From contig JACSRI010000126.1 of assembly GCA_014879845.1 (NCBI GenBank), positions 1 through 64,000 of the forward strand: a DNA stretch of 64,000 nucleotides, read 5' to 3'. Position numbers and translations under genes: made by a program. How positions within the stretch are numbered: the stretch's first letter is position 1; each line of letters begins with the position of its first letter. Shown in pieces: positions 58,830 to 60,966 of this stretch. The notes under the pieces are model-generated. The model saw nothing but the letters and a program-made list of their open reading frames with translations. It did no database searches and was not told the DNA's origin. The stretch is from Opitutaceae bacterium (GTDB lineage: Bacteria > Verrucomicrobiota > Verrucomicrobiia > Opitutales > Opitutaceae).

Positions 58830-58850
58830 GGACGCCTCGGTGAGGCGTCC
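58830..58850. terminator. hairpin, 9-bp stem with GGT loop, between convergent genes
   Basis: GGACGCCTC and GAGGCGTCC pair perfectly. The hairpin lies 13 bases after panE and touches the stop codon of the archaemetzincin gene. It has no T-run. On the minus strand it reads GGTAAGG-arm ending CTC-ACC-GAG arm, the same plan as the hairpin at 4873. Confidence 0.55.
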
Positions 58851-60080
58851 TTACCGTTTGAGCGCGACGAGCGGTTCGTTTGCGGCCACGGGTGTCGGGA
58901 CTGGTGATGGGGTGGTGTCGGGCTTGGATTGCGGCGCCGGCGGGGGCGGCGGAAGGTCAGGCGAGGTCGGTGTGGGAATCGGCACCGGCACTGATGGCTG
59001 AGGCGCAGGACTCCTTGGGGCGGGCGGAATGATGTAGCGTGGCGAGTCGAGCTGCGGGACCGACAAATCCTGGAACTGCGGGGGTGTCAGCGGCCCGACG
59101 CGCAGTTTCGCCAATTGCCGGCGCACCCACGCCTCCTCCGCCTCCCAGCCACTGTGCTGGCTGAAGAAATAGGCGAGGTCGCGGTAGCGCACCTCGAGAT
59201 TGGCGCCGGTCGCGTGGCGCAGCTTGCGCAGGCACACCGGGCAGAGGTGATGCGGACGGCTGTCGCTCTCGGCTTCGTGGTTGGAACCGTTTTCGACGCA
59301 ACGAAAGTAGGTGCAGTGCGCCAGGCCGAAGATGTGCGTGATCTCGTGAACCAGCGTCTTCGCGCTGCGGCGCAGCATGAGCGCGTCGAAATCGTCGGGC
59401 CGGTCATTGCTGAAGAACATCGGGTCGTGACGCGCAAAACTGAAAACACCGGCGCGGAGGGCCGACGACGCCTGTCCGTAGACGAAGTTCCACCGTGGAT
59501 CCGGGTAGAGATCGGTCATGGTCACTGCGACCATGCAGAAGGCGTCGTCCGGCAGCCTGGCGTTCAGCCAGGCGAGGACGGCGGTGGAGAGGAGTTGCGG
59601 TTTCCGGGTCTGTCGGCTGATGCGCGGCTCGAAGGCCGCGCTCTCCGTCAGGTCGGCCGGCAGGAGTACGACCTCGACCTGGAAGAAGGCCGCGGCGTAG
59701 TCGCGCAGCGCCTCGAGCGACGGGGCGGAGTCGGCCGGAAACTCGCCGAGCGGCTGCAGGTAGATGACCTTGCGCGACTCGTCGATGCGCTGGGCATCGG
59801 AGCGGACGAAGGCGGCGTAGGGTTGGCCGGGTTCCTCATGCGCGGCGAGCCAGTCGCCCGGAGCGGGAGGTTCGATCGGCCTAAAATCGTCATCGATCGT
59901 GAGCAGTCGCCGCACGGCCGAGGGTTCGTCGTCGAGCGGGCCGAGCGCGGCGACGACCTGTTCAGCGGTGGGTGGGACGAAGTCGACGCCACGGAGCAGG
60001 GTCTGCGCTTGCGCGACAAGCAGGCCCGAGAGCAAACCCGCGAAGCAAAAACCGCGGGCCGGAAAGGTCGGGGTGGACAC
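58851..60080 (-). CDS. archaemetzincin-family zinc metalloprotease (AMZ2-like), exported
   Basis: A 409-residue protein with a signal-like N-terminus (GFCFAGLLSGLLVAQAQ). The archaemetzincin core is clear: HEITHIFGLAH (H245, E246, H249, H255), then cysteines at 256, 261, 280 and 283, with the cys-rich zinc tail LCPVCLRKL. Upstream DLYPDPRWNFVYGQAS and GVFSFAR match eukaryotic AMZ1/AMZ2 more than archaeal forms, as far as I recall those sequences. The Met-turn position after C261-V is E263 instead of Met. The C-terminal 90 residues are proline-rich. The GTG at 60080 is chosen to start a signal peptide; an ATG at 60152 is also possible. Substrate unknown. Confidence 0.78.
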   Translation of the reverse strand: MSTPTFPARGFCFAGLLSGLLVAQAQTLLRGVDFVPPTAEQVVAALGPLDDEPSAVRRLLTIDDDFRPIEPPAPGDWLAAHEEPGQPYAAFVRSDAQRIDESRKVIYLQPLGEFPADSAPSLEALRDYAAAFFQVEVVLLPADLTESAAFEPRISRQTRKPQLLSTAVLAWLNARLPDDAFCMVAVTMTDLYPDPRWNFVYGQASSALRAGVFSFARHDPMFFSNDRPDDFDALMLRRSAKTLVHEITHIFGLAHCTYFRCVENGSNHEAESDSRPHHLCPVCLRKLRHATGANLEVRYRDLAYFFSQHSGWEAEEAWVRRQLAKLRVGPLTPPQFQDLSVPQLDSPRYIIPPAPRSPAPQPSVPVPIPTPTSPDLPPPPPAPQSKPDTTPSPVPTPVAANEPLVALKR

Positions 60081-60300: not shown

Positions 60301-60966
60301 ATGGAATCCGCGCCCACGCTTTACCTCGACGCCGCGTCGCCCGCCATCGCGGTCGGCCTGCGCGTGCGCGCCGGGGAGGCGCCCACGTGGGTGCACACGC
60401 ACGACGAGGCGGGCGTGGCGCTCTTCCGCGCGGTCGGGACGCTCGCCCGCGCACGCGGCATCGCCATGGGCGACGTCGCGACCGCCGTGTTGTGCGAGGG
60501 CCCGGGTTCGCTGCTGGGCGTGCGGCTCGCGGCCATGGCCCTGCGCACATGGATGGCGCTGCCGCGCCCAAGGCCGCTCGAGGTGGTTGGGTATCGATCG
60601 CTCGAACTGGTCGCCGCCGGTCTGCTGGCGCGCGGGCAGCGCGGACCGTTTCACGTGATCGTCGACGGACGCCGCGCGACCTGGAACACGCTCACCGTCG
60701 ACGCCGAGGGGAACTTGGGCCCGATCCGGCGACGACCGGCGGCGGAGGCCTTTCCGCCGGGCGAACCGGTGTTTCACCCGCACGGGTTTCCGCTCTGGCA
60801 GGCGCTGCCGACGGGTGTGCAGGCCGTCGAGTACAACCCGGCGGCGCTGCCCGGGCTGGCCACGCGTTTCGGGCTCCTGCGCCCGGTGGCGTCGCCTGAA
60901 GCCTTCATGATCGAGATGCCGACCTACCGCGAGTGGACGCACGAGCATCCCACGCGTCCGGCGTGA
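60301..60966 (+). CDS. tsaB: TsaB-like tRNA threonylcarbamoyladenosine protein
   Basis: A 221-residue protein of the TsaB/YeaZ branch of the ASKHA fold, which partners TsaD and TsaE in making t6A in tRNAs. The N-terminal [16 protein letters not shown], the segment [25 protein letters not shown] (normally GPGSFTGLRVG) and [12 protein letters not shown] (normally DARRGEVY) can be aligned. The match is weaker than usual, so it is called TsaB-like. An ATG at 60289 is an alternative start. alr follows after 10 bases, so the two are probably co-transcribed. The archaemetzincin gene is divergent from it across about 220 bases with no other gene. Confidence 0.75.

Follow-up and report, generated by a model that had tools for sequence, protein, structure and literature searches.

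An archaemetzincin gene of peptidase family M54 (here amz) was identified on the reverse strand of the window, i.e., the whole stretch of 64,000 nucleotides that was analyzed (Table 1). The gene starts with a GTG codon at position 60080 and its stop codon occupies positions 58851-58853; other in-frame start codons are located upstream of the GTG, as far as position 60317, and translation may begin at one of these. A single M54 gene was found in the host genome.

The neighbors of amz are housekeeping genes, namely a mannose-1-phosphate guanylyltransferase-like gene, ruvX, a tRNA pseudouridine synthase gene, an accD-like carboxyl transferase gene, panE, and alr. The start of amz is divergent to a tsaB-like gene, which was named from its sequence and has no Pfam match, and its end is convergent with panE. 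The strong hairpin predicted between the stop codons of amz and panE lacks a T run and may represent a two-way terminator. Across 23 stretches (the window and 22 further loci) no neighbor was found to be shared beyond close relatives, and conserved neighbors were therefore rejected as a pointer to a substrate or partner. Since the neighbors are housekeeping genes and unshared, the setting of amz gives no hint of its substrate.

Table 1. Features of the archaemetzincin locus, with positions numbered in the window.
Feature	Position	Strand	Evidence
archaemetzincin (M54) gene, 409 aa	58851..60080	-	ORF, Pfam/NCBIfam profiles, PDB matches
signal-peptide-like N-terminus, residues 1-26 (R9, hydrophobic core, AQAQ)	60003..60080	-	hydrophobic segment similarly placed across the family
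N-terminal helical addition with conserved DWLxxHxExGQ motif	59769..60002	-	outside matches to archaeal AmzA structures
metzincin catalytic core, residues 105-293	59202..59768	-	profiles, PDB matches, model
HEITHIFGLAH: zinc ligands H245, H249, H255 and catalytic E246	59316..59348	-	alignment
Met-turn position, GAA = Glu263	59292..59294	-	sequence, alignment
Cys4 zinc-finger element C256, C261, C280, C283	59232..59315	-	alignment; role from PMC3427221
C-terminal helices past the core, residues 294-330	59091..59201	-	predicted model
proline-rich tail	58854..59090	-	sequence
hairpin GGACGCCTC-GGT-GAGGCGTCC between convergent panE and amz	58831..58851		-21.7 kcal/mol, z -3.5

The identification as an archaemetzincin, which had been proposed in an earlier note from the sequence of this DNA, was confirmed by Pfam, NCBIfam, and PDB sequence matches. 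The protein matches the Pfam family Peptidase_M54 (PF07998) with an E-value of 3.7e-13 and 50.4 bits, the curated cut-off being 24.4. The NCBIfam archaemetzincin model NF033823 is matched with an E-value of 1e-25, yet the score of 90.6 bits lies below its cut-off of 145 bits; this model is matched by all 72 long-branch members scanned, and its cut-off is reached by only one genome in the phylum sample. Archaemetzincins of the PDB match the protein at E-values from 1e-6 to 3e-9. A structure model built from 72 relatives has a mean pLDDT of 95.5 and a pTM of 0.92. Its best five Foldseek matches are all archaemetzincin (AmzA) structures with TM-scores by target length of 0.76-0.86 (0.86 for 3zvs), and other metzincins are found far lower among the structure matches.

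The features that define the MEROPS family M54 were compared with the protein. Both the HExxHxxGxxH motif (HEITHIFGLAH) and the HCx4C...CxxC cysteines are present, comprising H245, E246, H249, G252, and H255 as well as C256, C261, C280, and C283, in agreement with the first description. The Met of the published consensus CxM is replaced, as also described there, by Glu263, which follows C261 and a valine at the Met-turn. Membership in M54 was kept, because the profile, the fold, and the other motifs reflect homology; the protein is a true archaemetzincin by homology which lacks one consensus feature. In addition, T248 stands in place of the usual Gly of HExGH.

The signal-like N-terminus and the proline-rich tail described before are both present in the 409-residue protein. 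By a count made by eye, 27 of the final 79 residues are prolines; this tail was not seen in the 11 relatives aligned with the protein. In 50 of the 58 family members in which this could be measured, the core is preceded at a distance of about 70-120 residues by a hydrophobic, signal-like segment, so that export, which the earlier note had suggested, appears likely. The profile match to the archaeal structures does not extend to the helices ahead of model residue 79 (protein residue 105) or past model residue 265 (protein residue 291).

The protein belongs to a family whose members have about 300 amino acids, a putative signal peptide, and conserved additions at both ends. About 1,400 genomes were searched, and 105 long relatives were included in the tree. 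The family is patchy in the host's phylum, the Verrucomicrobiota, with matches, weak ones counted, in 25 of the 252 genomes that represent the host's family. It is common in Planctomycetota, where 104 of 392 sampled genomes have some kind of match. Among the named relatives, the nearest (L002) carries the label Verrucomicrobiia. The short M54 proteins of archaeal type in these phyla cluster with archaeal AmzA, and the long proteins are placed on the opposite side of a branch with a support of 97, which puts the protein outside the ordinary archaeal type as the earlier note had expected. The tree covers bacterial and archaeal sequences. The label "AMZ2-type" given in the earlier note is a plausible candidate, under which the long branch would be kin to animal AMZ1/AMZ2.

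One Planctomycetota-sample genome (G628) carries a tandem pair of long archaemetzincin genes (L078:340-1212 and L078:1489-2448). Furthermore, a sub-branch of shorter M54-like proteins (L028, L105-L108, L113, L115) is set apart by a longer spacer from the third zinc ligand to the first cysteine that is retained; it is not described in the papers examined. As to the origin of amz, its GC content of 67.2% compared to 68.6% for the window, and its GC3 of 0.82 compared to 0.86-0.90 in four neighbors, are weak differences, and a foreign origin by base composition was rejected. A phage or plasmid origin was rejected as well: no phage match and no relative on a viral contig were found, and a single relative lies on a plasmid. 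This Bacteroidota protein is annotated as archaemetzincin, has a lipobox-like N-terminus, and carries Leu at the Met position.

The archaeal AmzA proteins of A. fulgidus (3zvs/4axq), M. kandleri (2x7m), and M. labreanum (3lmc) have the core fold, the HExxHxxGxxH motif, the Cys4 site, and the motif order in common with the protein. However, they consist of about 160-210 amino acids, carry Met at the Met-turn, and have neither the DWLxxHxExGQ addition nor the C-terminal helices. Long bacterial relatives of the host's phylum and Planctomycetota (e.g., L002, L005, L003, and the Bernardetia protein WP_338815796.1, named "archaemetzincin") have the same architecture and a putative export signal at 27-51% identity; most of the long relatives have Met at the Met-turn, and others Val, Leu, or Ile. 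Animal AMZ1/AMZ2, like the protein studied here, are larger than archaeal AmzA, and their motifs presumably resemble those of this protein. For human AMZ1/2 an aminopeptidase activity is given in the literature, which is still to be confirmed (PMC3427221).

A further bacterial M54 protein with a Cys4 site is CarG of Myxococcus xanthus (NF033824), which has HQxxH together with Met, whereas the protein studied here keeps HExxH and has Glu263; it scores 36 bits against NF033824, far from the cut-off of 250. CarG acts together with CarD in transcription and does not cleave proteins (PMC8156234). The remark in the earlier note that archaemetzincins have hardly any known bacterial function is fair, but one bacterial member, the non-proteolytic CarG, is known (PMC8156234, PMC3427221).

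At the Met-turn, 88 of the 105 long proteins have Met, six Val, five Leu, four Glu, and two Ile. The replacements in the 17 proteins without Met are V, L, I, or E only; A, S, T, K, Q, and D do not occur. With 17 of 105 long-branch members lacking Met, the published archaemetzincin consensus is too strict. Metzincins are named after the methionine of the Met-turn. Papers describe this residue as present in all metzincins identified, and it is regarded as supporting the zinc site almost universally.

Besides the protein of the window, Glu is found in one protein of the host's family (L051) and in two of Planctomycetota (L003 and L071). These four proteins lie on four separate branches, and a tree with a single Glu clade was rejected (p-AU 0.0028); a careful tree of 51 rows again showed four separate gains. 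Judged from these trees, there were at least four independent gains of Glu at the Met-turn among related bacteria. The earlier note had considered that Glu might be shared by a clade, and with an AU p of 0.003 it had to be given up as a clade marker. In the 51-row tree the nearest sisters of amz are two genes with Ile (support 98/82), and just 5 of the 14 rows in its own clade have Met. At least 11-12 changes between Met and other residues are counted on the trees. Extra sampling around the Planctomycetota genomes with Glu gave only genomes that were already included.

At the Met-turn, Glu is encoded by GAA in all four genes, and a route from Met to Glu through Val (GTG), a residue present in six relatives, is possible. 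The GAA:GAG ratios of the four genes are 6:13, 4:15, 11:11, and 11:9, GAG being commoner in two of them; the uniform GAA is probably due to chance and a mild curiosity.

The catalytic site is kept in the proteins without Met: none of the 17 has lost the catalytic Glu, any of the three histidines, or either of the first two cysteines. In alignment A2 with 72 members, H219, E220, H223, H229, C230, C235, and C254 (A2 numbering) are invariant. The dN/dS values (Nei-Gojobori) of four pairs, each with at least one gene lacking Met, are about 0.15 (a pair of Ile genes), 0.22, 0.09 (a Val compared to a Met gene), and 0.41. For amz and its nearest relative the value is about 0.28 and a guide only, the synonymous sites being near saturation.

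Of all columns, the Gly of HExGH shows the strongest link with the absence of Met: it is replaced in 13 of the 17 proteins without Met compared to 12 of the 88 that have it (Fisher 5e-7, with no correction for kinship). Nine independent pairs on supported branches of the 51-row tree showed none opposite in direction (median p 0.06). This is suggestive of a coupling between the two losses but no proof of it, and kinship may explain part of the pattern. In many members, most of them from the Planctomycetota sample (L003, L010, L064-L067, L079, and others), Ser or Thr replaces the Gly of HExxHxxG, a further departure from the metzincin consensus. Additionally, five long archaemetzincins (L068, L135, L136, L137, L138) have Asp as the fourth residue of the Cys4 site (CPxD), which suggests an altered structural metal site.

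Another set of M54 relatives in the host's phylum has a length of about 425 amino acids (L006:622-1893, L026:1438-2712, L030, L058, L060, L061, L109:733-2004). In these proteins, which match NF033823 with E-values down to 2e-24, the entire HExxHxxGxxH motif is gone (e.g., LLSSVGFALGVPR) and Arg is found at the Met-turn. They appear to be pseudo-archaemetzincins which are distinct from CarG by score. Their sequences indicate how real loss of function looks in this phylum, unlike the long proteins without Met.

Replacements of the Met-turn methionine were studied in other metzincins. In serralysin PrtC, His, Ser, and Asn in place of Met were reported as too unstable to isolate, whereas Leu, Ala, and Ile were accepted at the cost of impaired kinetics; in MMP-2, Leu and Ser were tolerated, and Glu is absent from the replacements reported (PMC1266349). 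In the mini-zincin Acel_2062 the C-terminal Tyr113 lies at the place of Met and its carboxyl group binds the first zinc histidine, which provides a precedent for a carboxylate at the Met-turn (PMC3890501). The Cys4 zinc directly below the site (PMC3427221) may make archaemetzincins more tolerant at this position.

Based on these observations, we give about an even chance to the reading that amz encodes an exported zinc peptidase, present as a single copy and belonging to the long archaemetzincin branch, in which the carboxylate of Glu263 props a zinc-ligand histidine. After removal of the signal peptide the protein would be located in the periplasm or envelope, where the N-terminal helical addition and the C-terminal helices would frame the metzincin core. 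H245, H249, and H255 would hold the catalytic zinc, E246 would act as general base, and the four cysteines would carry a structural zinc directly below the catalytic site. As a second-shell ligand, Glu263 would form a hydrogen bond through its carboxylate to one of the zinc-binding histidines and in this way keep the site ordered. The instability of the polar replacements in PrtC counts against Glu263 as a support of the zinc site, and the cases with Glu are few, four in 105. Furthermore, two well-built archaeal AmzA with Met were inactive in standard assays and have occluded clefts (PMC3427221), so that peptidase activity cannot be assumed for this protein; AMZ-tk of Thermococcus, in turn, cleaved casein (PMC4681839).

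It is rather doubtful, but deserves weight, that the Met-turn is simply relaxed, i.e., that the Cys4 zinc holds the loop, Met is dispensable, and the protein works like its relatives with Met, Glu263 having no special role. The occurrence of four different replacements, the repeated changes on the trees, the few Met residues in the clade of amz, and the position of the Cys4 site directly beneath the catalytic zinc (PMC3427221) are in line with this. However, the range of replacements is narrower than expected from free drift, and most of the family keeps Met. That the protein is a pseudo-peptidase, which keeps the zinc fold but acts as a binding protein like CarG of Myxococcus instead of cleaving, is unlikely. 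CarG shows that a bacterial M54 protein can be non-proteolytic (PMC8156234), and in another metzincin polar residues in place of Met were harmful (PMC1266349), but no long member without Met has lost the general base (Glu246) or a ligand of the catalytic zinc, whereas the apparently dead relatives of the same phylum have lost the whole HExxH and carry Arg. Finally, most homologs have Met, but a sequencing or assembly error at this codon is highly improbable, since GAA and ATG differ at all three positions, for which a single miscall cannot account, the frame is intact, Glu recurs in three other genomes, and the sisters have Ile.

More broadly, the long branch may include catalytically competent metzincins without Met, in a widespread exported family of Verrucomicrobiota and Planctomycetota in which Glu would have been recruited repeatedly and convergently as a second-shell ligand of the zinc histidines, together with the change of the HExGH Gly. 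This wider reading is put forward tentatively, at somewhat below even chances. The natural occurrence of Glu, Val, Leu, and Ile beside intact catalytic residues offers ready material for testing the purpose of the Met-turn. Point mutants of serralysin had suggested that polar residues destroy the site, a view on which the natural Glu bears. The family would also represent a putative exported protease that is frequent in two phyla of environmental bacteria.
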